64,000 bases of DNA from Verrucomicrobiota bacterium (GCA_028293545.1 JAQGOP010000052.1:124001-188000); one strand, 5' to 3'. Shown: positions 1-14,976, counted from the first letter of the stretch. Numbers and translations: made by a program. The notes: a model not told the origin generated them from the letters alone.

Positions 1-1865
1 TAATCGCCATAGCTCCCCTGCCAAGCGTCGGCCACGACGACGGCACCGACCTTCGTCCGGTGCGGATGAGTCGCCGCATAATAGGCCATATAGCCTCCGC
101 GAGAAAAACCCACCAATCCGATCTCGCTCAAATCCAGGGAGGATTCGCTGCGAAGTGAATCGATTGCCGCATCCAATCTCGCCATGAAATACTCTCCCTC
201 CTTGGTCGTCAGAGTCACATCGGGTCGGTTCTCGGCCGGAATATTCATCTGCAGAACGGCAAAGCCTTTTTGCGCCAGAAGCTGGCTGGCATAGGCGGAA
301 CTTGCCATGCCATCTGGGAGAAATTGGGCGGGAGAATATCGGTAAGCTTGAACCACCAGCTTGAGGGTTTGATTCGCTTGCGCCTGAGGAATGATTAAGC
401 CGCCTTCCTCCATTGCCCCGTCGGGATCGATCCAATGGACCGTCCGTGTCGGGTGCACCCTCACACCGGCGAGTACGGGATCCTCGCCGAAGAGTCGCAG
501 AGATTTACTTCCCTGCACGGCCCAAACCATCGGCGGCGTGTTTGCATCCTGTCTCAGTTCAACATTGAACGGCCTTGCGTCGTCTGGAGAGACAGAGTCT
601 TTCGATGCTGTCCTATCTTGCAGCTTCCACCCTCCTTCCTTGCGCGCGAACCGGCGCCAAACACTGGGTCGTTTCAAGAGATTGATATATTCGACGACAA
701 ACTCTTCGCCGGGATTCGTCCAGTGGGCGCGTCCGGTCCAAAGGCGAGGATCCTCCATCCTCGGCGTTTCGATAGAGGCGATTTTGGTCCAGTGGCGCGT
801 TTCCACGTCGTATTCCACGATATACGCAGTTGTGGTCCGCTCCATGTCATCGGTGGAGAGCGGTAATGCGGTGTTGAACAAAATGACTCGCCGGCCGTCG
901 GGTGACCATAGGACGGAGGTGTCGACGATGTTATTAGGGGATGTCGCCGCGCCAACCGGGGCGTCAAGCATCGGCGTCAACTCTCCCGTGCGCAGATCGG
1001 CCAAGATGAATTGATAGTGGCGCACTACCGGTTTGTAATAATGGCTCCACTCCTTTGGAATCTTCCATCCCGTCGGGGCAAAGACCATGACGGCAAATGC
1101 CCCAGTAGGAGCAAACCACGTCCGCGGTGCGCCAAGTTCTGACTGAGCCATGAACTGCGCGTCACCGCCGTGGTAGCGGGAAATAATCCGATTGGTCCTT
1201 CGGGGCGGAGAAAACAGCGAGAACACGGCATCCCCGGAAATCACCGTCGCCGGATATTTTCCAAAGGGGCTTGTGGCTTCTTCGTTGTCCACCGCGTAGA
1301 TGACGCCTTCCGTTCCCGCCTGAATTTCCACCACGTCAGTGTTTGCGCAGGTGAGATTCACAAGGCTGTTGTGGGACACCCTGAACTGATAACCATTCAC
1401 GGGATTATTCCCCGCCGTGCCGAGGAACGTGAGCGTATCGTTGTCGGACCAGCGGATATCGCGAATTCCCACTTCGTCGTCGCCCGGCCGAGTAGAAGCA
1501 ATGGCAATTACAGCTTTCGGACGTGGCGCCTCATTCGTTCCGGAGTCTGAAATTTTCAGCCGAGCGGAAATCACCTCAGTTTCGAATACGAACACTTCAT
1601 AGATCACCTCGTCTTGCTTCAGGCTTCCCCTACGGGTCGCGACAAAGAAATGTCTTCCGTCGGGAGAGAATTTGCCACCGATCGCGCTTTCCGTAGGCTC
1701 GATATAGGCTGGACTCGTTTGCCCGGTCACGAAATACCGCATCTCGATGGACTCGCGCACCGTCCACGGTCGTTCCCGAGTGACGTCGAATGCCACCACG
1801 TCTTTGCTAAACCCACCGATGCCTGACGATGCCAACAGCGCGCAACGCGCCAATTTCTGGAGCAT
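1..1865 (-). CDS. S9-type serine peptidase, partial; possible lasso-peptide isopeptidase (AtxE-like)
   Basis: This gene is missing from the ORF track because it runs off the left edge without a stop, but the minus-strand frame is open for about 621 codons from the ATG at 1865. The stop codon of the upstream receptor gene lies 6 bases before this ATG in the same frame, so translation is probably coupled. The N-terminal two thirds have propeller-like stretches with SPDG motifs (KFSPDGRHFF, WSPDGRRVI). The visible end enters an alpha/beta-hydrolase domain with the nucleophile elbow GFSRGG (Ser near residue 588). The catalytic Asp and His would lie beyond the edge. The family is prolyl-oligopeptidase/S9. 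Position behind ECF sigma, FecR and a FecA-like receptor matches the arrangement known for AtxE-type lasso-peptide isopeptidases; that specific function is an inference. An acyl-peptidase acting on other imported peptides is equally possible. Confidence 0.75.
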   Translation of the reverse strand, partial: MLQKLARCALLASSGIGGFSKDVVAFDVTRERPWTVRESIEMRYFVTGQTSPAYIEPTESAIGGKFSPDGRHFFVATRRGSLKQDEVIYEVFVFETEVISARLKISDSGTNEAPRPKAVIAIASTRPGDDEVGIRDIRWSDNDTLTFLGTAGNNPVNGYQFRVSHNSLVNLTCANTDVVEIQAGTEGVIYAVDNEEATSPFGKYPATVISGDAVFSLFSPPRRTNRIISRYHGGDAQFMAQSELGAPRTWFAPTGAFAVMVFAPTGWKIPKEWSHYYKPVVRHYQFILADLRTGELTPMLDAPVGAATSPNNIVDTSVLWSPDGRRVILFNTALPLSTDDMERTTTAYIVEYDVETRHWTKIASIETPRMEDPRLWTGRAHWTNPGEEFVVEYINLLKRPSVWRRFARKEGGWKLQDRTASKDSVSPDDARPFNVELRQDANTPPMVWAVQGSKSLRLFGEDPVLAGVRVHPTRTVHWIDPDGAMEEGGLIIPQAQANQTLKLVVQAYRYSPAQFLPDGMASSAYASQLLAQKGFAVLQMNIPAENRPDVTLTTKEGEYFMARLDAAIDSLRSESSLDLSEIGLVGFSRGGYMAYYAATHPHRTKVGAVVVADAWQGSYGD

Positions 1866-1871
1866 GGGCGG

Positions 1872-4800
1872 TTAGAATGAGACGTTGGCCTTGAGATAAA
1901 TGACTCCTCCGCGCGGGTCGCCGACGTAGCTATAGAGCCCTTGAGTGTTGCTGACATCGATGGGCGGCCTTTGGTTGAAGATATTCTTGATTCCCAGCGT
2001 AAAATTCCATTCGGGGTGGCGACCAGGGCCGCCTGTGCTGGGCCAGCGATAGCTACCCGCCACATCGAAATAGGCCTGACTCGGGATTCGCTCGCTTCCT
2101 TGGAGCGCGATCAGATTAGGCGCGCCCAATGCGTAGCCATCAAAATAACGCGCCGTCCCGGAGGCGCTGAAGGAACCGGCTTCCCATGCGACCCCCGCAT
2201 TGCCCTTCCACCGCAGGCTGATAAGTTTCCCCGCGTTCTCGATCGGGGGAAGCGACTTCGTTATCTGCTGCCAGTTTTGGGGCTGGCAGGTTGCGTTCGA
2301 CCAAACCGTCAGGTTACCTCGGGCAGTCGTTCGTCGGTACTCAATTCCGATGTCGTAGGCGTCAACCTTCGACTGCGCGACGTTGATCAGCGTCGCATCG
2401 ATCGCCGTGATCGGCCCGACACTGTACCCGCCGCCGGGCGCTCCTCTCGTCACCCGAGAAGGTGCGTAGGAAATAAGGTCGCCGAGGGATTGGGCATCCA
2501 GTCCGAGAATCTGATCAATTTCGTCATTTTTGCGAATGCGCGTATAGTCGACCGAGATCCGCAATCCCGGAACCGCTTTCGGAGTCAAAACCGTGCCAAC
2601 CGACATACTGCGGGAACGCTCGGCTTTGAGATCTGGATTCCCGCCGGCGGTGTGGGTGATGTCGCCCAACACCTCGTTTCCGCGCAATTGATCGGTCAGG
2701 TTGAATTGGCTGCCCGAGATCGCATTCGGAAGGTTGGGAACAAGCTGTGCGGAAGTAGGAGGAAGAAAGCCGGTGCCAACACTCGCCCGCAACATTAGAT
2801 CCGAAACCGGCTTGTAGGCCAAACCGATCGTCGGATTGACCGAAGATAGATCGCGTTCGGTTCTCCGCGCGTTGACGGGCGTGAATGAATCGGACACCCC
2901 ATTACCAACGATACGGTGTTGATCGGCTCTGAGCGCGAGTTGAATTTCGAGACTTTCAACCATGGAAAGACGTTTTTCCTGACTAACCAAAGGGACGCGG
3001 GCCTCCGCATACACGCTCCCGGAGCGTTGGTGTCCCCCATAGTAGGTTTGTGCATAATCGAAGCCGGGGAAGAGAGTCGTGGTTTGTTGTGTGGTATCAA
3101 AATCCTCGTTCCGTAACGTGGCGGCAAAACTGAGGGTCGCGGCACTCATGGCTCCTGGCAGAGCTCCCGAAACGCGCACTGACCCCTCATTCATGCTGCT
3201 CCTAGTCGGGCTGCTGGTCGGCCGACTGAGGAGGTAGGGCGAAAAATCGGGCGTCTGCCCCACGTCCTGAAAGACATTTATCTTACCGCTACTGACCGCA
3301 CTTGCGGCGTTGTTTCCGGTACTGTCAGAGGCACCCAAGCTTGAAGGCGATCGGGTGGTGAGCCGATTTCGGCTATCAAGAAAGTCCATCTCTCCCTTCC
3401 AAGTCCCCGGCAATTGGAAAATTAGTCCGAAGGAAATGCGTTGGGAGATGATTTCGGAGGAGTAATCTTGGTCTGTGCCCCCGACCGGTGTCGTCACTAT
3501 GATGGTCTGATTAAATGGGTTTACCGGAGAGGTAGCCAGGACTACAAAGGTGCTACTCGCTGAGCTGGTGTTGAAGAGGCTCCTATTGGAGCTCCAATTC
3601 CATTCCGCGAACCCTTCGACCTTCGGCGAGAATGTTTGCCGGAGAGAACCGATCAAAGATTTGGTGGTCGTGCCAGCCAAGAGACTTTGCTTTCCGCCGC
3701 CTCCTAAAGACGAAAGCTGGGCGGTAGGCGCAAGTTCCAGATTATACCGGCCCCGGTTTGCCACGAAGGCTGCACCGTTGTCCGTCGACATGCCGCGATA
3801 GCCCTTGGGTACGAAAGTTGCGGCGGAATTCAAGTTTGTCCCCGATTTCAGAACTAATGATTCTGCGGGGTTTAGGCTCCGGATATTCGTCGTGGAACTC
3901 AGAGGCGGCACAACACTTGGCGAACCGACGAGGGCAGGGTTCCTGCCGAAGATTTGCGCTCTTGCACGTTCGATGAGGGTTCTTTGATCCGCGTTGAAAT
4001 CATCGGAATGTGAATATCCCGCAGTGAGCGAGAAGTGCGTCTTGGCGCCGAGGTTCATTCCGGCGAGAAGGGAAATTCGTTCGCGGAAGGCGTCTCCCTT
4101 ATAGGCTGTTTCGAAGCCCGGGCTAAGAGTCACGCCGTTGTAGTCCCTACGCAAAATTACGTTAATGACGCCTCCCGTCGCGCTACCTCCGTAGATACCC
4201 GAGGCCGTCGTCGGAAGCACCTCGATTCTCTCGATGGCGGAAAGAGGAATGGCATTCAAGTCGGGCTGGATTTGCGCGCCTGCAAAAGAGATCGTCGCGG
4301 CGCGGCGACCGTCGATCAGGATTAGGGTCTGATCGGACCCCAAACCCCGGAGGTTGACCAAACTATTGTTCCCGATCTGGACGCCGTTTTGCGTGGTGGT
4401 ATCCGCGCCGGAAGGGGTTGCGGTGAGAGTGTTGCGAAGAAAATCCGCCACGTTGCTGTCGCCGGAACGCTGGATCTGTTCGCGGTTCAAGACGATATAC
4501 GGCTGAGTATCATCGCGGCTGCGCGGCTTATCCATATTAAGCGTCTTCCGCTCAAAGACCTCGAATGTACCGAGTTTAACGATGGAGTTTCCGTTTTCAT
4601 CTACCGCCGTCCGACTGCTTGCCGGGCGGCTTGAGACGTTTTTTTCTGCGATCTCCGGAGATGATTCGCGGCGCAGGGTGAGAATGCCGGACTTCTCGTT
4701 GTGGACGCCGACGAGGGCGGTGCCGTCGAGCATTTGGTCCAGCGCATCGCGGGGTGTAAGGTTGCCTCTCACCTCCTTCGTCGTGATCCCGCGGACCGTG

Positions 4801-4979
4801 CTTGTCGGATAGATAACCTGGACCCCGGACTGTTCTGAATATTGCCGAAGGGTTTTCTCGGCGGGGCCGGCCGGCAGGTTGAAGGACTTGACGGCATCGT
4901 CCGCCGCGCGGACAGACAAACCGAAACAGGCAAACGCGACGAGGATGACGAAGCGACGAAGCAGGAGGAGCGGGGTCAT
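1872..4979 (-). CDS. TonB-dependent receptor with STN signalling domain (FecA-like)
   Basis: This is an outer-membrane active transporter that should also signal to FecR. The ORF track starts at an upstream TTG, but the internal ATG at 4979 gives a proper signal peptide (MTPLLLLRRFVILVAFACFG, cleavage near VRA-ADD) and a protein of 1035 aa. An STN domain follows (FNLPAGPAEKTLRQYSEQSG through GILTLRR), then the plug (NLRGLGSDQTLILIDGRR, AIERIEVLPTTASGIYGGSA) and a long beta-barrel ending in a terminal Phe (KANVSF). The STN domain is the module that contacts a FecR-type anti-sigma factor, and such a gene lies 210 bp upstream. The ligand cannot be read from sequence; the following peptidase suggests a peptide. 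Confidence 0.9.
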   Translation of the reverse strand: MTPLLLLRRFVILVAFACFGLSVRAADDAVKSFNLPAGPAEKTLRQYSEQSGVQVIYPTSTVRGITTKEVRGNLTPRDALDQMLDGTALVGVHNEKSGILTLRRESSPEIAEKNVSSRPASSRTAVDENGNSIVKLGTFEVFERKTLNMDKPRSRDDTQPYIVLNREQIQRSGDSNVADFLRNTLTATPSGADTTTQNGVQIGNNSLVNLRGLGSDQTLILIDGRRAATISFAGAQIQPDLNAIPLSAIERIEVLPTTASGIYGGSATGGVINVILRRDYNGVTLSPGFETAYKGDAFRERISLLAGMNLGAKTHFSLTAGYSHSDDFNADQRTLIERARAQIFGRNPALVGSPSVVPPLSSTTNIRSLNPAESLVLKSGTNLNSAATFVPKGYRGMSTDNGAAFVANRGRYNLELAPTAQLSSLGGGGKQSLLAGTTTKSLIGSLRQTFSPKVEGFAEWNWSSNRSLFNTSSASSTFVVLATSPVNPFNQTIIVTTPVGGTDQDYSSEIISQRISFGLIFQLPGTWKGEMDFLDSRNRLTTRSPSSLGASDSTGNNAASAVSSGKINVFQDVGQTPDFSPYLLSRPTSSPTRSSMNEGSVRVSGALPGAMSAATLSFAATLRNEDFDTTQQTTTLFPGFDYAQTYYGGHQRSGSVYAEARVPLVSQEKRLSMVESLEIQLALRADQHRIVGNGVSDSFTPVNARRTERDLSSVNPTIGLAYKPVSDLMLRASVGTGFLPPTSAQLVPNLPNAISGSQFNLTDQLRGNEVLGDITHTAGGNPDLKAERSRSMSVGTVLTPKAVPGLRISVDYTRIRKNDEIDQILGLDAQSLGDLISYAPSRVTRGAPGGGYSVGPITAIDATLINVAQSKVDAYDIGIEYRRTTARGNLTVWSNATCQPQNWQQITKSLPPIENAGKLISLRWKGNAGVAWEAGSFSASGTARYFDGYALGAPNLIALQGSERIPSQAYFDVAGSYRWPSTGGPGRHPEWNFTLGIKNIFNQRPPIDVSNTQGLYSYVGDPRGGVIYLKANVSF

Positions 4980-5161
4980 GGGTGTCAGGTGGGGTGGTGA
5001 CAAAGGCCGCCGCTGGAGTGCGGGCAGCTTGGTTCCTGACGAAACGAGCCAAGGCGAAAAACCCGTGCAGATTATTTTTCCCAAATGTTACGCGCGGGCA
5101 AGCTGTCGCTGCCCGCTCTCGCCCAGCACTCGGCAAAAAGCATTCTCAACTCGCTGCTTTC

Positions 5162-5187
5162 CGGAGCAGCCGGGCCGCCTGCGCTCC
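5162..5187 (-). repeat. GC-rich palindromic repeat, copy in FecR 3' end/intergenic
   Basis: On the minus strand this reads as a variant of GCAGGCGGCCCGCCTGC flanked by a short GC tail. The same unit recurs at 8489, 52898 and 59059, always just outside or at the end of a coding region. The symmetrical core would form a strong RNA stem. Confidence 0.5.
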
Positions 5188-5189
5188 GA

Positions 5190-6221
5190 TCAGCGTTTTG
5201 CCTGACGCGAAAGGTACAGCGTCTTGCCCTCGCGGCGGACATCGATGCCGAAGGCTGTCTGCAAGGCCTCGGCGATCGCCGTGGGGTCATCGGCGCGGAA
5301 GCGGCCGCTAAGGGCGACGGCGGCGAGCGCCGGATCGGCGAGGACAAATTTCTCGTCACTGTAGCGGTTCACGAGTGTGACGACTTCACTCAAAGGGGCG
5401 CCGGAAAATTCCACCTGCGGATTCCGCCACGCCAGCTGCTCGGTCATCTGCGCGGAGGCGATAGGCAGGACCGGGGCCACGGGAGCGGACGGCATGAGAT
5501 CGACCCGCATCTCCTCCCCGGCCCCAACGAAGGCAATCGTGTGCACGGTGGCGAGGGGCGAAGATTCCTGCAGGGGCTTCGCCGCGATCGTGCCCGGCTG
5601 GTCAACCGCAACCCGGCCTTCGGTAACAAGGAGCGCGGCCTGCGCGGAGCCAAGTTGCACCGAAAACGCGGTTCCGACGGCGCGAAATTCCACGCCGCCG
5701 GCGTCGACGATAAACGGCCGCTCCTTGTTCTTCGCGACGGTGAACAGGGCCTGGCCCTTGAAGAGATGCACGCGCCGGGATTTCTCCGTGTAGTCGAACG
5801 CAAACCTGGCTTCAGCCGGCGCCTCGATGACCGAGCCGTCAGGCAAGGTCTGCTTCATCGGCGCAACGACGACGGCGCGAGAGAGTTCCGGCGGCGTCAG
5901 TGTTCTTGAGCTGGACCACGCGAAAAATCCGGCGATCACGAGGAATGCGGCAGCGCTGCCCTGCCCAATCCGGCGGCGCGTGCGGCGTTTGCTTAAACGC
6001 GCCAGCTCGCGCTTGAAGTCTTCCGCGGCTCCCTGCCGGCGCGGCTCAGCCAGGGCACCAAAGAGCGTCGCGTGCTCGGCAAAGGCGGCGGCGTGGGCCG
6101 GCTCGGCATGCCAGCGCTCAAATTCCCTTTTCTGCGCGGCGGTCAACCCGGCATCGCGGCGGGCGACCCAGCGGGCGGCTTGATCCTCGATCTCCTCGTT
6201 GATGGCGGCGGAGCGGCTCAT
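5190..6221 (-). CDS. FecR-family anti-sigma factor / signal transducer
   Basis: This is an inner-membrane regulator that relays receptor occupancy to the ECF sigma factor. The ORF track extends it into the sigma gene in another frame. The ATG at 6221 overlaps the sigma stop as ATGA and gives 343 aa. The N-terminal cytoplasmic part (RWVARRDAGLTAAQKREFERWHAE) is the FecR_N-type anti-sigma region. A single membrane segment follows near residue 95 (AAAFLVIAGFFAWSS). The periplasmic FecR domain has the usual core (TLPDGSVIEAPAEARFAFDY, FRAVGTAFSV). The C-terminal 55 residues (YSDEKFVLADPALAAVALSG) resemble an STN-like fold. It lies in one operon with the sigma factor and the receptor. Confidence 0.9.
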   Translation of the reverse strand: MSRSAAINEEIEDQAARWVARRDAGLTAAQKREFERWHAEPAHAAAFAEHATLFGALAEPRRQGAAEDFKRELARLSKRRTRRRIGQGSAAAFLVIAGFFAWSSSRTLTPPELSRAVVVAPMKQTLPDGSVIEAPAEARFAFDYTEKSRRVHLFKGQALFTVAKNKERPFIVDAGGVEFRAVGTAFSVQLGSAQAALLVTEGRVAVDQPGTIAAKPLQESSPLATVHTIAFVGAGEEMRVDLMPSAPVAPVLPIASAQMTEQLAWRNPQVEFSGAPLSEVVTLVNRYSDEKFVLADPALAAVALSGRFRADDPTAIAEALQTAFGIDVRREGKTLYLSRQAKR

Positions 6222-6808
6222 GTGCGGGGACTTCTTTCGGCTCTTTCCCGCATGTATTCCCTCAAGGCCCGCAGGCCCCGCGCAATGTGGGACTCCACCG
6301 TGTCGAGCGATAGGTTCAAGTGCGCGGCGATCTCCTTTTGAGGCAGACCCTCGATCCGGCTGAGCAGAAGGACGCGGCGGCATTTGGGGGGAACCGAATC
6401 GAGGGCGAGAGCGAGGAGGCAAAGTTCCTCCCGGGTGATCGTGGATTCGACGACGCCCGGGACATCCTCTATAACGAACGAGACATCGGATTCCGTGCGG
6501 TCGGAGATGGGCGAACTCTGGCGGCGCCGGAGGTGATCGATCGCCAGGTTGCGGGCAACCCGGTAGAGAAAGGATTTGGAGAATTGGACCTGCCGGGTCA
6601 GGGCGGCCTTCCACATCCGGAGATAGGAGTCCTGGACGATGTCGTCGACATCGCGGAGCGAGGGATAGCGGGACCGGATGAAGTTCCGCAGCGAGGTGCC
6701 GTTGGCCTCCACTTCCTTGGTGAGCCACTGGGCGGGCGTGTCCGTCAACGGCGCGGCCACCACGCAGGGCGGCGCGCTCAGTTCGGGCGATGAAACATTG
6801 GCACTCAC
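6218..6808 (-). CDS. ECF RNA polymerase sigma factor (FecI-like)
   Basis: This 196-aa ECF sigma factor has region 2 (DVDDIVQDSYLRMWKAA, FLYRVARNLAIDHLRRR) and region 4 (LPQKEIAAHLNLSLDTVESH). It should direct transcription of the receptor operon and be held by the overlapping FecR gene product. The start is GTG at 6808; no in-frame ATG precedes conserved region 2. The stop overlaps the FecR start by 4 bp, so the two are translationally coupled. No recognisable ECF promoter could be defined upstream. Confidence 0.9.
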   Translation of the reverse strand: MSANVSSPELSAPPCVVAAPLTDTPAQWLTKEVEANGTSLRNFIRSRYPSLRDVDDIVQDSYLRMWKAALTRQVQFSKSFLYRVARNLAIDHLRRRQSSPISDRTESDVSFVIEDVPGVVESTITREELCLLALALDSVPPKCRRVLLLSRIEGLPQKEIAAHLNLSLDTVESHIARGLRALREYMRERAERSPRT

Positions 6809-8571: not shown

Positions 8572-9396
8572 TCACGGCTCCCGAAAGATCAGCGGCGTCA
8601 GCTTGCCGTCGGTCACCGCTCCGATTTCCACGTCGGCCATGTACGAAGCGCGGTCGTTCCTGCGCGCCACGGTGTTCGGTTCGATCAGCCTCATGTTCTC
8701 GTCCATGTAGATGATCGTCATGACCGCCCGCGGAGCCTGCGAGACGTTGCGACCGGCGCGATGAAAGGTCCAACCGTAGTGGAAACTCACATCGCCGAAA
8801 TCGAATGGTGAATCCTCGAGCGGGTAATTCTGCTCCTTCATCGACCGGCCAATGCGCTCCTCGCTCTCGTCGCTGATGCCGAGCTCGCGTCCGGCCTCGA
8901 ACTTGTGGCTGCCCTTCGCAAAGGCCAGCGGGCCCATCTCCATCGGCACCGCTTGGAGCGGAATCCACGCGGTGACCGTGTTGGGGTTGCTCAGCGGCCA
9001 GTAATATTGGTCCGCGTGCCACGGCGTCACCCCGCCGCCCGGCTCCTTGTAGAGCGCCTGGTCGTGATACATCCGCACGCCTCCCACCCCGAGCAGCTGC
9101 GCCGCCATGCGCGCGAGCCGCTGGCCCCAGCAGAACTCCTTCACCGTTTCGTTCTTCGTCCAGATATTTCCGACTTGGAGAAAGGCCTTGTTATACGTGT
9201 CGCGCTGCTCGATCGGCAGGTGCATCGTGTTGAGGCGATAAACCTCGGACGTGATGGTGGGGCCGTAGTAGTTCAGCACCGATGCCGGCAGCACGTGCTT
9301 GAGCTTCACGAAGCCATCGCGGCGAAAGCGGGAAATTTCTTCGTCGGCCAGGGAATAAGGCGCGTCGAGCGCTTGTTGGATTGCGGGAGGAGCCAT
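8572..9396 (-). CDS. phytanoyl-CoA dioxygenase-like Fe(II)/2-oxoglutarate oxygenase
   Basis: The ATG at 9396 (MAPPAIQQALD) gives 274 aa; the ORF track extends it into the promoter region. The double-stranded beta-helix fold is indicated by the iron ligands H-x-D in TPWHADQYYW and a distal His in YGWTFHRAGRN, and by a downstream Arg (QAPRAVMTIIY) that would bind 2-oxoglutarate. Members hydroxylate diverse small molecules; the substrate is unknown. The gene is divergent from a LacI-type regulator with a candidate operator between them, and lies in a sugar-utilisation neighbourhood, so a role in processing a sugar or osmolyte derivative is plausible. Confidence 0.85.
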   Translation of the reverse strand: MAPPAIQQALDAPYSLADEEISRFRRDGFVKLKHVLPASVLNYYGPTITSEVYRLNTMHLPIEQRDTYNKAFLQVGNIWTKNETVKEFCWGQRLARMAAQLLGVGGVRMYHDQALYKEPGGGVTPWHADQYYWPLSNPNTVTAWIPLQAVPMEMGPLAFAKGSHKFEAGRELGISDESEERIGRSMKEQNYPLEDSPFDFGDVSFHYGWTFHRAGRNVSQAPRAVMTIIYMDENMRLIEPNTVARRNDRASYMADVEIGAVTDGKLTPLIFREP

Positions 9397-9452
9397 GGGA
9401 TCAGGATCTGAATCTAATGTGTGGCCACAGATCGAAAGCAACGCCCGTGCAT

Positions 9453-9466
9453 TTCTACACGTAGCA
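9453..9466. promoter_or_regulatory. candidate LacI-type operator, site 1
   Basis: TTCTACACGTAGCA matches the palindrome TTCTAC-NN-GTAGAA at all but one defined position. It lies between the divergent oxygenase and LacI genes, 57 bp from the oxygenase start. Confidence 0.55.
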
Positions 9467-9485
9467 TGCCCTGTACAGAACCCGG

Positions 9486-9599
9486 GTAAACCACGCGTGA
9501 ATACGAACCAGGAGGACACCGCCTTCGGTGCCAGCCGCGGTAAAATCCCGAGGCTTGTCCTCGTGATGCGTGTTCGTTCGTACCTATTCGCGGTTAAAA
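9486..9599. repeat. long imperfect inverted repeat upstream of the LacI gene
   Basis: The left arm (TAAACCACGCG, GAATACGAAC, GGAGGACA) pairs with the right arm (TGTCCTCG, GTTCGTTCGTACCTATTC, CGCGGTTAAA) with several bulges. A small perfect hairpin CACCG-CCTT-CGGTG sits just inside the left arm. Its role is unknown; it could fold in the leader of the regulator mRNA. Confidence 0.4.
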
Positions 9600-9661
9600 G
9601 ACTCTGCGTTTTTTCAGGTGAGGCGCTTGCCAACCTCCACGGTTTCGCCCACCGATTTCCC

Positions 9662-10729
9662 ATGAACGAACGCGTGACCCTCCGCGACCTCGCGCGCATC
9701 ACGGGCGTACATTTTACCACGGTGGGACTCGCGCTGCGCAACGACGCCCGGATCAGCGCGGCGACCGCGGCCAAGGTGCAGGCCGCCGCTCGCCAGTATG
9801 GCTACACCGAGGACGCCATGCTCTCCGCCCTCTCCACCTACCGGCATCGGAACTCCCATCGGTTCGCGAGCGTGATTGCCTACATCACGACCTATGATCC
9901 CGACGAGATGCTCAAGACGAACGTGACCGAACGCACGCTGGTCGAGGCCGCCACCGCCTTTGCCTCCTCCCGCAATTTCCAGCTCGAGCTGTTCCAAATC
10001 AACGCCCCCGAGATGACCGCGGAGCGAATGAGCAAGCTCCTCTGGGCGCGCAATATCCAGGGCGTGATCCTTTCGCCGAAACTTCCCGAAGCGGGCCCGA
10101 TGGAAAACCTCGCGTGGGAGCATTTCTCGACGGTGGCCATCGGTTACTCGATCACCGACCTCAATGTCCACCGGGTCTGTGCGCACCAGGCGCACAACAC
10201 CCGGCTGTGCATTTCCAAGCTTCGCGAGCGCGGCTATCGGCGCGTCGGCCTGATCATGGGGCGCGAAGTCTACGAACGCAGCCGCGGGCACGTCCTCGGC
10301 GCGTACCTCTCCGAGCAATGCCTGCACCCCGAGGCCGAGCGCGTATCGCCGCTGTTCCTGCCCCTGGCGGAAATCACCCGGCCCCGGATCCAGCACTGGC
10401 TCCGCGACCAGCGCATCGATGCCTTGGCGCTTTCGAGCCAACCCTTGGAAATCACCGCGATGCTCGCCGAGCTCGGCTACTCGGTCCCGGGCGAAATCGG
10501 GGTGGCGCTGGTCAGCCGCTTCGGGAAAACCGACCACATCGCCGGTGTCGACGAACGCATGCAGGCCCTCGGCGAGGCTGCGGTCGATGCGGTGATCAAC
10601 CTCATCAGCCACAACGAACGCGGCCTGCCGGAGTATCCCCGTTACTCGCTGGTCGAAGGCCGCTGGATCGAGCGCGCCACCGTGCGAGCGATGCCGGCCA
10701 TCTTGGAGCCGATCCGGCAGGCGTCGTAA
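9662..10729 (+). CDS. LacI-family transcriptional regulator
   Basis: The ATG at 9662 places the helix-turn-helix at the N-terminus as the family requires (VTLRDLARITGVHFTTVGLA), giving 355 aa. The ORF track adds 89 spurious residues. A periplasmic-binding-protein-like effector domain follows (QGVILSPKLPEAG, CISKLRERGYRRVGLIMG, HIAGVDERMQALGEAAVDAV). It should bind a sugar or sugar acid. It lies at the edge of a group of oxygenase, MFS transporter, heparinase-like, oxidoreductase and TonB-receptor genes. A shared palindrome in their promoters is the best candidate for its operator. Confidence 0.9.
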   Translation: MNERVTLRDLARITGVHFTTVGLALRNDARISAATAAKVQAAARQYGYTEDAMLSALSTYRHRNSHRFASVIAYITTYDPDEMLKTNVTERTLVEAATAFASSRNFQLELFQINAPEMTAERMSKLLWARNIQGVILSPKLPEAGPMENLAWEHFSTVAIGYSITDLNVHRVCAHQAHNTRLCISKLRERGYRRVGLIMGREVYERSRGHVLGAYLSEQCLHPEAERVSPLFLPLAEITRPRIQHWLRDQRIDALALSSQPLEITAMLAELGYSVPGEIGVALVSRFGKTDHIAGVDERMQALGEAAVDAVINLISHNERGLPEYPRYSLVEGRWIERATVRAMPAILEPIRQAS

Positions 10730-10754
10730 GAAACGCGCTCGGCGACTCGCTCGC

Positions 10755-12170
10755 CTACCCCGCGCTCGCCGCCGCGCGCACCACCGGCGGACGAAATCCC
10801 TTATCGCCGCCGAGTTTTTTCCACTGGATGAACAGCGCGATGAGCGTGACCAGGGTCATGGTCGTGCAGGCGCCGCACAGGATGAAAATATACCGGTAGT
10901 CGCGCACCGTGCCGAGAAACCATCCGCAAAGCGGCGGGCCAATGATCACGCTCATGTAACCGAAAGCCTGGTTGGCGCTCAGGTACTGGCCGTAGAATTC
11001 GCGCGGAAGCAGCCGCGGCGTCAACGCCGCCCCGGCACCCAGGTAAATCGCAATCATGCCCTGGTTGATGCTCCAGAAAACGAGCAGGCTGTTCGAGCCG
11101 TGGATCAGCCAGTAACAGCTGAAGTAGCTCACGCTGATCAGGAACATGCCGACCAAGCCCACGCGGATCGGATGGAAGCGATCGATCAGCGGGCCGATGA
11201 TGAAAAAAATCGGGAGCTGGATGAAAAACGTCCAACTCTTCACGTGGCCAAACTCCGCCAGCGTCAGCCCCAGCGTCGGCGCATAGCCCGGCTGCCCCGC
11301 CTGCGTCGCGAAAAACACGATGAAGCTCAGCGGCGCGAGCGAGCCCCAGAAAAAGAAACTGAGACAATAGAACGTGAGGTAGAAACGATTGGTGTAACAT
11401 TCCGTGAAATATCGCTTCACGGTTTTCCAGCGCTGCCCCGGCTGCTTCGGCGGCGGCGGGTCGTAGTCGCCTTCCTTCACGCGCCAGACGATCAGGTAGA
11501 ATGCGATCGCGTAGAGCAGCCCGATATCGACGTAGACCAGGAAGGTGTGGGCTTGCGATGGACCGAGCACCCAGCGGTTGAACGCAATGCTGCCCAGGGT
11601 GCCGACGACACGAAACAACCCGATGAATTTTCCCATCACTTCCTGCGGGATGACGTCGACGAAGAGGTATTGGTAGACCTGGGTAATGTAGGCGTTGAAG
11701 ATCGTGAAGATGATCACGCAGAGGCCCATCCACGCGATGGTGCAGCCGGCTTGGGTCACGTGCTCGCCGAGGTGCAACGCGGCCAGCGTCCGATAGACAA
11801 ACGCCCCGCACGGCTTGGCGGCGCCAAGCATGGCCAGGCTCAGCACGGCCGGTGGAGTGCACCAAAGTAGAAAAGGCCGGCGCCGGCCGAGCCGGCCCCG
11901 GTGATTGTCGCTGTGCATCCCGATCACCGGGTAAAGGCAGAACGCCAGCAGCGCAGTCGGGCTCGAGAACAAACCGATCAGCGTGTCGCTCGCGCCCTCC
12001 CACCGGAGCTGCAGCGGGATGAGCGCCGCCGGGATGGATTCCAGCAGCTGGAAAAAGAAATCGCCCCACAGCATCCAGAACATCACCTGGAGCAGCGCGC
12101 TCCTGGTATAGGTCAGTGTGCCGACGCGATAGACCTTGGGAGCGGGTGTTTCAGCGGGGCGGGATTCCAC
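10755..12170 (-). CDS. MFS sugar transporter (GPH/sucrose-transporter-like)
   Basis: This polytopic membrane protein has about twelve hydrophobic segments. It carries an RGRLGRRRPF loop after the second helix, as in glycoside-cation symporters and plant-type sucrose transporters. No ATG precedes the first membrane segment; the GTG at 12170 (ESRPAETPAPKVYRVG) is chosen, giving 471 aa, and the ORF track's 105 extra N-terminal residues are low complexity. It is divergent from the heparinase-like gene, with candidate LacI operators between them. A role in importing mono- or disaccharides released from the target polysaccharide is inferred. Confidence 0.8.
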   Translation of the reverse strand: MESRPAETPAPKVYRVGTLTYTRSALLQVMFWMLWGDFFFQLLESIPAALIPLQLRWEGASDTLIGLFSSPTALLAFCLYPVIGMHSDNHRGRLGRRRPFLLWCTPPAVLSLAMLGAAKPCGAFVYRTLAALHLGEHVTQAGCTIAWMGLCVIIFTIFNAYITQVYQYLFVDVIPQEVMGKFIGLFRVVGTLGSIAFNRWVLGPSQAHTFLVYVDIGLLYAIAFYLIVWRVKEGDYDPPPPKQPGQRWKTVKRYFTECYTNRFYLTFYCLSFFFWGSLAPLSFIVFFATQAGQPGYAPTLGLTLAEFGHVKSWTFFIQLPIFFIIGPLIDRFHPIRVGLVGMFLISVSYFSCYWLIHGSNSLLVFWSINQGMIAIYLGAGAALTPRLLPREFYGQYLSANQAFGYMSVIIGPPLCGWFLGTVRDYRYIFILCGACTTMTLVTLIALFIQWKKLGGDKGFRPPVVRAAASAG

Positions 12171-12292
12171 AGGACGGCGTTCGGGAAGAAAACGGACAGG
12201 TAGAAGGGGCGTCCGCGCCAGCGCAACCCTGCGCGCCGTCCGCGGCCCGATATCCTGCCCGCGCGCGCGTTCGGTTCTCAATCGCCCGCATC

Positions 12293-12306
12293 TTCTACCC
12301 GTAGAA
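12293..12306. promoter_or_regulatory. candidate LacI-type operator, site 2 (perfect arms)
   Basis: TTCTACCCGTAGAA has perfect six-base arms around a two-base centre. It lies between the divergent MFS transporter and heparinase-like genes. Confidence 0.65.
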
Positions 12307-12442
12307 CCGCGAGTCTCCGATCCACCCGCGGATTTCGCGAACCGGGGAAACCTTCCGGAGGCCGAATTCGGCGCGAGGAAAAACCCGCCGGTTGATCTCC
12401 CGCGTGCCCTGGTCGGCGCGCATTCGCGATTCCGGAGTTCAC

Positions 12443-12470
12443 GGGAGCTGGGAGGTCGGAGCCTGGAGCT
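12443..12470 (+). repeat. heptad repeat array (GGAGCT-type)
   Basis: Four 7-bp units (GGGAGCT, GGGAGGT, CGGAGCC, TGGAGCT) resemble the array at 16854-16881, which also sits in a gap. Confidence 0.5.
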
Positions 12471-12484
12471 CTCACCGCGTCCCA

Positions 12485-12498
12485 ACCTACGGGTAGAA
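12485..12498. promoter_or_regulatory. candidate LacI-type operator, site 3
   Basis: The 14-mer ending CTACGGGTAGAA matches the palindrome at 12 of 14 positions, counting the free centre. It lies about 100 bp upstream of the heparinase-like start. Confidence 0.55.
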
Positions 12499-12594
12499 AA
12501 GATTTCAATCCATCCGGGTTTGCCGTGCCGCCGGAAAAACCGTTGCTCTCTGCGCGCCGCGAATTTTCGCGGCGCTCCTGCCCCTCATCCTTCC

Positions 12595-14976
12595 ATGCGA
12601 ACCATCCTCCTGAACAGCGCCGAAGCGGTCTTTGCCCCGTTCTTCGATCCGGCCTTGGCCGAATTGGCCGACTGGACGGTCGACGCCCCCGGCGCGCAAG
12701 GGCTCAAGCTCACCCAAAGCTGGGCTTTCGTCATCGTGAACTGGGAACGCTGCGCGCCCGACGGGCTCGTCTTCCGCCTGCACCGCCGCTTCGAACGCCT
12801 CGATTGCGCGCATTACGATCGGCTACTCGTCTGCTTGAATCTGCCCGAGGATAGCGTCGTCCACATGGTCGCCGAAACCGACGCCGGCCCACGCCGCCGC
12901 ACCGGGGAACCCACCGGCCCCACGCGACGCGAGGAATCGCTGCCGCTCGAAGGCGCCAGGCAGATCCACTCCCTCACGATCGAGGTCCGCCACCACGGCC
13001 GCTCCGCCGCGTCGGCCTGGCTGCTCTGGCTCGGTTTCCAGCACACTGAGCGCTTGCCCTATCATCTCGCGCAGTGGAGCGGATACGATGAGCGCTGGGA
13101 CAAATACCTGCAGCCGCTTTCCTTCGAGCCGAGTTTCACGCCGACTTATGGGCTCCTCGTCAACGCCTCGGAGCTCGAGGAAGTGCGCCGCGATTTCGCC
13201 GGCTCGCCGGTCACCGAGGAACTGCGCGCCCTGGCCGAGATCGCGCGGCGCGTGCAGCCGGAAAGCCTGATCGGCGAGGACCTGAAATATTGGAGCACGA
13301 ATGTCCTGCGCCGCGAGCGCGACATCAACAAGATGCTCTCGCTGCACGGCCCGTTTGCCGCGCAGGCCGGCATGCTCTGGCGCGACAAGGAACTCTGCCG
13401 GCTCGCGGCGCGCTTCGCGCTCAGCATGGCGCACTGCGATCATTGGGAGGACGTGTTCTTCGCCCACCTGCGCGGCAGCGCGTGGGACCAGCGCGGATTC
13501 CCGCAGGCCACCGCGACCTGGGATTGCGCGATGATCCTCGACCTCTGCGGCGAATGGTTCACGCCGGTCGGCCGCGACTTGATCCTCCGCCGCATCGCGT
13601 CCGACGCGCACGGCGCGATGTGCCAGGCTTCGTGGTGGTGGGAATACATGTACTACGGGAACCAGCTCGCGTGGATTTCCCCGGCCCGGATCTACGGCCT
13701 CCTGGTCCTCGAGCAGACCATGCCGATGCGCCACGAAAATTACCCGAAGCCACCGACCCGCGTGCGCCCGCACACCGACATCGCCTGGGAAAACCTGCAG
13801 GATAATTTGTCGAAGGCATTGCTGCCGGACGGCGGCTACCTCGAAGGCGTTTCCTATTTCACCTACACCGCGCGCCAGGCGTTCCTCTGCGCCCAGCTCT
13901 ACGCCCGCGCCCGCGGCAAGGATCCCCGGTCGCTCATCGCGCCGGCCCTGCTGCGCACCGACCGGCTGGCGGAAATGCTTTATTCCACCGACGACCGGCA
14001 GGACATGATCCTCGTCGCCGACGCGGTGTTTCCCGTCAGCGAAGGCATCGCCTTCCTCGCCTGGATGATGCCGCAGTCGCACTGGGTCACGGTCTACCGG
14101 AAGTCGGTTCGCCGCGCCGGCGCCGCGCCGATGCTGCTGCCGCTGCGCCTCGATCGCGACATTCCCGCCGAAGGGCCCGAGCTCGCGGCGTTCTGTTCGA
14201 TGCCCGACACCGGCATGATGTGCTCGCTCCGCCGGTGGCGCGGCGAAGACGTGAAAATTTTCATCATGGGCAATCGTTCCGGCGGCGATCACCAGCACGA
14301 GGACAAGGGCCACTTTGTCCTCGAATTTGCCGGCGACAGTTTCGCCTTCGACTTCGGGGTGATGGACTACGCGAACCCGGTGACCGAGCAGATGAAACTC
14401 GCGCAGCGGCACAACATGCTCACGCCGTGGAGCGACGACGAACGGCCGAGGCCGAAAAACCCGATCCACGCCGACATCAAGCCGCGCGGCGCGGGCGACG
14501 CCGTGAAGTTTCAGGCCGCGATCGACCTCGAGGCCGGCTGGGAAGGCTGGTTCAAGCGCTGGCGGCGCACGTGGGATTCGCCGCAGCCCGACTCGCTTGA
14601 AATCATCGACGAATGGGCGGTGGAAAAAGGCCGCGGGGTTGTTTTCCACTGGACAACCCGCCTGCCCATGCGCCTCGAAGGCAATCGCGTCTTCATCGAA
14701 GGCCGCCGTGCGATCGCCGAAATCACCGTGCCCGCCGGCGCCACGGCCGAGCTCGAGCGGCTCCCGCTGCAGGATCCGCGGCGGACGAAATTCGAAATGG
14801 TCTACCACGGCGCCAGCAACCGCGGGGTCGATACGATCGAAGCCGGCCGGGAAAACGGCAGCATCTACGGCTGGGCCCACGGCGAATTCCAGCCGCGGCT
14901 CTCCATCCGCCAGGCCGGTTCCTCGGGCACGCTGCGCGTGGCGGTGAAGCTCTCACTCAAGCCGGCCGCCCCGTGA
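12595..14976 (+). CDS. heparinase II/III-like polysaccharide lyase
   Basis: The ATG at 12595 (MRTILLNSAEAVFAP) gives 793 aa; the ORF track adds 153 residues of intergenic sequence. The first 150 residues look like a beta-sandwich. An alpha-helical toroid follows (RNMLTP-type helices, WWWEYMYYGNQ), then the heparinase II/III C-terminal domain with the hallmark SGGDHQHEDKGHFVLEF. Such enzymes cleave uronic-acid-containing polysaccharides or oligosaccharides by beta-elimination. There is no signal peptide, so a cytoplasmic oligosaccharide-processing role is suggested. The gene end overlaps the convergent AraC gene by 24 bp. Substrate family is not determined. Confidence 0.75.
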   Translation: MRTILLNSAEAVFAPFFDPALAELADWTVDAPGAQGLKLTQSWAFVIVNWERCAPDGLVFRLHRRFERLDCAHYDRLLVCLNLPEDSVVHMVAETDAGPRRRTGEPTGPTRREESLPLEGARQIHSLTIEVRHHGRSAASAWLLWLGFQHTERLPYHLAQWSGYDERWDKYLQPLSFEPSFTPTYGLLVNASELEEVRRDFAGSPVTEELRALAEIARRVQPESLIGEDLKYWSTNVLRRERDINKMLSLHGPFAAQAGMLWRDKELCRLAARFALSMAHCDHWEDVFFAHLRGSAWDQRGFPQATATWDCAMILDLCGEWFTPVGRDLILRRIASDAHGAMCQASWWWEYMYYGNQLAWISPARIYGLLVLEQTMPMRHENYPKPPTRVRPHTDIAWENLQDNLSKALLPDGGYLEGVSYFTYTARQAFLCAQLYARARGKDPRSLIAPALLRTDRLAEMLYSTDDRQDMILVADAVFPVSEGIAFLAWMMPQSHWVTVYRKSVRRAGAAPMLLPLRLDRDIPAEGPELAAFCSMPDTGMMCSLRRWRGEDVKIFIMGNRSGGDHQHEDKGHFVLEFAGDSFAFDFGVMDYANPVTEQMKLAQRHNMLTPWSDDERPRPKNPIHADIKPRGAGDAVKFQAAIDLEAGWEGWFKRWRRTWDSPQPDSLEIIDEWAVEKGRGVVFHWTTRLPMRLEGNRVFIEGRRAIAEITVPAGATAELERLPLQDPRRTKFEMVYHGASNRGVDTIEAGRENGSIYGWAHGEFQPRLSIRQAGSSGTLRVAVKLSLKPAAP

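Follow-up and report, generated by a model that had tools for sequence, protein, structure and literature searches.

The stretch of DNA analysed here (the window) covers 64,000 nt of contig C23 (G000:C23:124001-188000) in a Verrucomicrobiota assembly of 3.96 Mb and 63 contigs that is 84% complete; the relatives of the source genome are Opitutaceae, among them the same-genus genome G010. At its left end, four genes lie on the minus strand in the order sigma factor, anti-sigma factor, STN-type receptor and peptidase, and all four were found where the sequence-only reading had placed such an operon. The first encodes a FecI-like ECF sigma factor of 196 aa (6808-6218; Pfam Sigma70_r2, 1.9e-12, and Sigma70_r4_2, 1.4e-15; TIGR02937 above cut-off). 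It overlaps the gene for a FecR-like anti-sigma regulator (ORF 6728-5190; Pfam FecR, 2.5e-14), which, judging from a DUF4880-like N-terminus, probably starts at the Met at 6221 to give a protein of 343 aa (5190..6221). The third gene is an ORF of 1070 aa for an STN-type TonB-dependent receptor (TBDR) with Pfam STN, Plug and TonB_dep_Rec domains (1872..5084; likely Met at 4979, with a signal peptide), and only 6 bp separate its stop from the start of an S9 peptidase, which we call P1. The window holds residues 1-621 of P1 (1..1865); the gene runs left beyond the window to C23:123589, and we completed the last 137 residues, from codon 622 onward, from the contig, giving a protein of 758 aa (L002:11589-13865, minus strand, or 11592-13865 without the last 3 nt).

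Annotated lasso-peptide clusters show the very same order on one strand, sigma-FecR-TBDR-peptidase, which takes the observation beyond chance and agrees exactly with the earlier proposal that the operon corresponds to the receptor/isopeptidase half of lasso loci. It had also been proposed that extending the sequence to the left might uncover a precursor and B1/B2 and C genes. The part of the contig read on the left contained no precursor, B or C gene, and none adjoins the operon; the extension yielded instead the end of P1 and, after a gap of 43 bp, a tandem S9 peptidase of 927 aa, P2 (L002:8786-11569, also given as 8789-11569), so that the operon reaches about 3.2 kb past the left coordinate first assigned to it. 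Beyond P2 lie a small unrelated gene and, at a distance of about 1.4 kb, a gene for a secreted thioredoxin-like protein (L002:6232-7419).

Compared alone with solved structures, P1 gave its best full S9-type matches to AtxE2 (5txc, 8.7e-13) and then to 5jrk/5jrl (8.5e-7), which we take to be SpI-IsoP. A profile of the P1 group scored 175 bits with AtxE2 and 135 with SpI-IsoP, against 72 for the next S9 protein. A tblastn search of 72,556 plasmids with P1 returned 10 records, mostly peptidases adjoining lasso cyclase and B2 genes. In seven of the eight records that we opened, the match stood behind a TonB receptor with adjoining lasso C and B2 genes, and six of these seven loci had sigma and FecR genes, or their equivalent, upstream; the eighth record is without annotation. 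The control search with P2 returned 66 records of general S9 peptidases. Against the isopeptidase annotation model NF033523 (cut-off 400), P1 scored only 117 bits, compared with 47 for DPP5, and the lasso-type peptidase of a second module in the same genome, on contig C22, scored 148. Peptidases from lasso clusters also fell below this cut-off (Dyella, 156 and 158; Asticcacaulis M6, 91; Sphingopyxis MC4, 165), and an S9 peptidase from outside the clade, in genome G003, reached 115, about the same as P1; we therefore dropped the NF033523 score as a test of membership.

Phylogeny gave a clearer separation. In a tree of 21 proteins, lasso-type peptidases split from ordinary S9 peptidases with support of 92/95, and in a tree of 28 proteins, 14 isopeptidases split from 14 other S9 peptidases at 100/99, with P1 nested inside the isopeptidase side. 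The full peptidase thus groups with lasso isopeptidases and not with ordinary S9 aminopeptidases, the point on which the sequence-only reading had made itself depend. We conclude that P1 is, as far as its sequence tells, a member of the lasso-isopeptidase (AtxE2/SpI-IsoP) lineage and not an ordinary S9 peptidase, and that P1-type enzymes define an isopeptidase subclade that is missed by the standard annotation model. Identity between P1 and lasso enzymes is low (22-30%), which would leave ample room for a change of substrate.

The C22 module (L027, 3310-10683) comprises an ECF sigma factor, a FecR, an STN receptor and the peptidase, and is likewise an orphan. Both modules of the source genome are intact, with full-length frames over five genes (C23) and four genes (C22). 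Two relatives have decayed: in G010 (L023:8044-11986) the receptor is fragmented and the peptidase has an in-frame stop, and in G135 (L024:8561-13755) an IstB-type insertion disrupts the peptidase; this decay indicates that the module is dispensable. When genomes were scanned for the P1 pattern, just three relatives came up, one of them outside Opitutia, in Dyella monticola; within the class, 384 genomes searched with a profile at E<=1e-40 yielded only the two copies of the source genome. Dyella monticola (L050/L051) carries two lasso clusters head to head, with a single shared ECF sigma factor, two FecR proteins, two receptors and two isopeptidases, in the order B2, C, IsoP-A, TBDR, sigma, FecR, FecR, TBDR, IsoP-B, C, B2 and a precursor-like ORF. 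The latter (L051:15584-15709, minus strand) encodes 41 aa with Thr at -2 and core residues Gly1/Asp9, and is a plausible lasso precursor.

In the 28-protein tree, P1 and the G010 and G135 peptidases formed one group, the C22 peptidase was sister to Dyella IsoP-A (100/99), and the P1 group and the C22 peptidase nested with Dyella IsoP-B and Asticcacaulis M6 (99/98). A topology that kept the lasso-cluster peptidases of the clade together without the Opitutaceae ones was rejected (p 7e-5), as was one that held the four Opitutaceae peptidases together (AU test, p 1e-4), these p-values being indicative given long branches and groups picked after the tree was seen. Rejection of both topologies suggests at least two separate entries of lasso-type peptidases into Opitutaceae.

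The nucleophile Ser588 and His706 of P1 align with S527 and H638 of AtxE2 (the residue at the Ser position is Ala in 5txe), and Ser588, Arg589 and His706 are invariant across the P1 group. AtxE2-type members carry a Glu (AtxE2 index 610) at the end of a loop, ahead of a helix; Glu610 is presumably the triad acid of AtxE2. This column is non-acidic in P1, and the acid is likewise absent from the C22 and G010 peptidases, both Dyella enzymes, Asticcacaulis M6 and Sphingopyxis MC4. The column of Glu684 in P1 holds Glu or Asp in every aligned P1-type member and also in SpI-IsoP, making Glu684 a candidate for an alternative triad acid. The isopeptidase triad has been given as Ser-His-Glu/Asp (PMC9266682). 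Thus, of the catalytic Asp and His that alignment to AtxE2 had been expected to reveal, the His is kept, whereas the acid column of AtxE2-type enzymes is a Glu, is missing in P1 and has a likely substitute in Glu684. The possibility that P1 is a pseudoenzyme through a missing Asp is weakened, since members of the same subclade from lasso clusters also lack it and all retain the acid of the Glu684 column. The S9 hydrolase domain is present in P1 and the propeller match is weak (PD40, 0.026); an AlphaFold model of the part of P1 in the window, from a 4-row alignment, had a pLDDT of 48 and was too poor to use. By eye, the signal peptide is weak in P1 and clear in its relatives, and we predict a periplasmic location for P1.

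The receptor has a different history. Nine TBDRs from lasso clusters formed their own clade (SH-aLRT 99) with the window receptor outside it; the window, C22 and G135 receptors sit in an Opitutaceae clade (100), and matches to the window receptor family at E<=1e-100 occurred in 25 of 252 family genomes. We classify the window receptor, on this tree, as a member of an Opitutaceae-only family. As a whole protein, the receptor matched models for B12, heme and siderophore receptors weakly, with scores far under the cut-offs. For many members of the receptor clade, the next gene encodes a secreted protein of thioredoxin/redoxin fold; Opitutaceae loci with a FecI-FecR-STN receptor followed by a secreted thioredoxin/redoxin-like protein include L136, L141, L144, L145, L146, L151, L153 and L105. 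In the same-genus module of G003, the closest regulator/receptor relative of the window module (identity of 54% for ECF, 55% for FecR and 45% for TBDR), the gene behind the receptor encodes an S9 peptidase that does not belong to the isopeptidase clade. Given these partners, mostly thioredoxin-like or, in G003, non-clade S9 peptidases, the receptor alone is uninformative about lasso peptides.

This separate history suggests that the enzyme is the interchangeable part of the operon, placed behind a resident sensing-receptor cassette. Such an arrangement agrees with the contrast in GC3, which in both modules of the source genome is about 78-79% for sigma and FecR and 63-66% for receptor and peptidase, the latter values lying below those of 28 of the 29 other receptor ORFs in the genome. 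With its receptor outside the lasso clade, the unit is not simply half a lasso locus. The description of the operon as a lasso uptake and cleavage module is therefore borne out by gene order and peptidase lineage, but not by the receptor, and we read the module as a hybrid of a resident sensing receptor and a laterally shared lasso-isopeptidase.

P2 is an S9 peptidase outside the AtxE clade, and is sister to another S9 peptidase of the source genome, on C19. In Polymorphobacter lasso clusters (L160, L161), S9 peptidases that P2 matched in the plasmid search occupy the position of the isopeptidase, which indicates that lasso clusters draw on more than a single S9 lineage. A 17.8-kb Bacteroides finegoldii plasmid (L154) carries a tandem pair of S9/DPP-IV-like peptidases with a lipocalin gene behind them.

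At its completeness of 84%, the source assembly contained no lasso B2 gene above the cut-off of 33 bits (best match 20.6 bits), and no lasso cyclase was found in it (24 bits, cut-off 525). Two weak matches were set aside: a PF13471 transglutaminase-core match on C53 (24.5 bits) was under the cut-off, lay beside restriction/defence-like genes and reached just 15.9 bits against the model for lasso B2, and a cyclase-like match on C8 (24 bits over 37 positions) was not of the asparagine-synthetase-type cyclase. G010 (95% complete) likewise yielded no B2, and there was none above the cut-off in G135 (92% complete) or G003. The same search detected B2 in 12 of 200 Opitutaceae genomes, so the absence of B2 from the source genome, G010 and G135 is informative; eight of the 12 B2-positive genomes, which were probably all covered by the P1 searches, had no P1-like peptidase. 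The earlier suggestion was that the cell may consume a lasso peptide made by itself or by neighbours. With no B2, cyclase or adjoining precursor in a genome 84% complete, production by the cell itself loses ground, and neighbours become the most likely source.

In FecIRA systems, ligand binding at the STN receptor is relayed via FecR to the sigma factor. By homology, we propose that the TonB receptor would bind an extracellular peptide and that its STN domain would signal occupancy via FecR to the ECF sigma factor, switching the operon on; the peptide would enter the periplasm, where P1 would open the macrolactam ring and P2 might then break down the linear product. The substrate would be a lasso or similarly isopeptide-closed peptide from other bacteria, taken as food, read as a cue or destroyed. 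Its origin in other bacteria is the most likely one because lasso biosynthesis was not detected in the source cell. Considering the receptor, the sensing pair, the isopeptidase lineage and the absent biosynthesis genes together, the simplest reading is an orphan, signal-regulated module that imports and linearises foreign lasso (or similarly cross-linked) peptides, and we give it about an even chance of being correct, with both the identity and the source of the substrate putative. Against it stand the receptor clade, the AtxE2 Glu missing from P1, the NF033523 score of 117 against 400, the low identity and the decay in G010 and G135. The substrate requirements of known isopeptidases are strict (PMC9266682), and the window module has no known partner peptide.

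The main rival is that P1 descends from a lasso isopeptidase but now serves as a periplasmic peptidase for other oligopeptides or cyclic peptides, behind a receptor of a promiscuous family. The wide pairing of this family with thioredoxin-like or ordinary S9 enzymes, the low identity of P1 to any lasso enzyme, the second S9 peptidase of another lineage in the same operon and the peptidase of a different clade in G003 all fit generic peptide uptake. However, the peptidases of four modules, two of the source genome and two of its relatives, come from a single narrow clade associated with lasso clusters and were taken from it at least twice by the AU test, which random recruitment of S9 peptidases would not predict, and we consider generic uptake rather unlikely, if a serious contender. 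Uptake of an iron chelate (siderophore or heme), with the peptidase incidental, would account for the FecI-FecR-FecA architecture and the weak B12, heme and siderophore receptor matches; with all of those far beneath their cut-offs, and a peptidase 6 bp downstream whose lineage otherwise comes from lasso loci, we think it most improbable.

It is also very unlikely that the cell makes its own lasso peptide from genes in the missing 16% of the assembly. The 63 contigs and the B2 genes of other Opitutaceae leave some room for this, but in all annotated clusters examined the biosynthesis genes adjoin the isopeptidase, and here both flanks are sequenced; moreover, the C23 and C22 modules are both orphans, and the more complete G010 and G135 likewise lack B2. 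If the module were the functionless, decaying remnant of a lasso cluster since lost, the broken genes of G010 and G135 would be explained, but the intact frames of both source-genome modules, and a receptor not derived from lasso receptors, which speaks against a stripped lasso locus, make that very unlikely as well.

Foreign lasso import and linearisation, if correct, would place these modules in a wider setting. Some Opitutaceae may consume or eavesdrop on their neighbours' lasso peptides, having at least twice taken isopeptidases from lasso producers and set them behind their own sigma/anti-sigma-coupled receptors. The receptor family would then be a general platform for modified peptides with an interchangeable periplasmic opener, an isopeptidase for rings and perhaps a thioredoxin-like protein for disulfides. 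We offer this broader proposal tentatively, as one that could well be wrong. The role of isopeptidase-type lasso peptides has been called enigmatic (PMC9266682), and a 2026 review says of the isopeptidase gene only that it colocalises with lasso clusters, mostly in Alphaproteobacteria (PMC13352647). Our literature search, made largely without subscription papers and thus weak evidence of novelty, found no report of Verrucomicrobiota isopeptidase modules. An orphan receptor and isopeptidase module in this phylum, arisen at least twice, would separate uptake and opening from production, and the idea of lasso peptides as shared or stolen goods is now directly testable.

Among known systems, the isopeptidase-containing lasso clusters of Alphaproteobacteria (AtxE2, SpI-IsoP and BenE type) have gene order, orientation and peptidase clade in common with the window; the window module differs in its lack of a precursor, B2 and cyclase, in its receptor clade and in the non-acidic Glu610 column, with Glu684 as the candidate acid. 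The twin clusters of Dyella monticola contain the closest peptidases outside the class Opitutia, IsoP-A being sister to that of C22 and IsoP-B lying in the P1 subclade, but they include complete biosynthesis genes, a plausible precursor and receptors of the lasso-receptor clade, all of which the window module lacks. Ordinary S9 peptidases (DPP4, DPP5 and AAP type) resemble P1 in the S9 hydrolase domain, and P2 belongs to that broad group, whereas P1 falls outside them at 100/99 and is without their usual catalytic Asp position. Finally, the Opitutaceae FecI-FecR-TBDR modules with a thioredoxin/redoxin-like partner share the receptor family and the regulators with the window; behind the receptor they encode a secreted thioredoxin-fold protein, where the window has an S9 peptidase.
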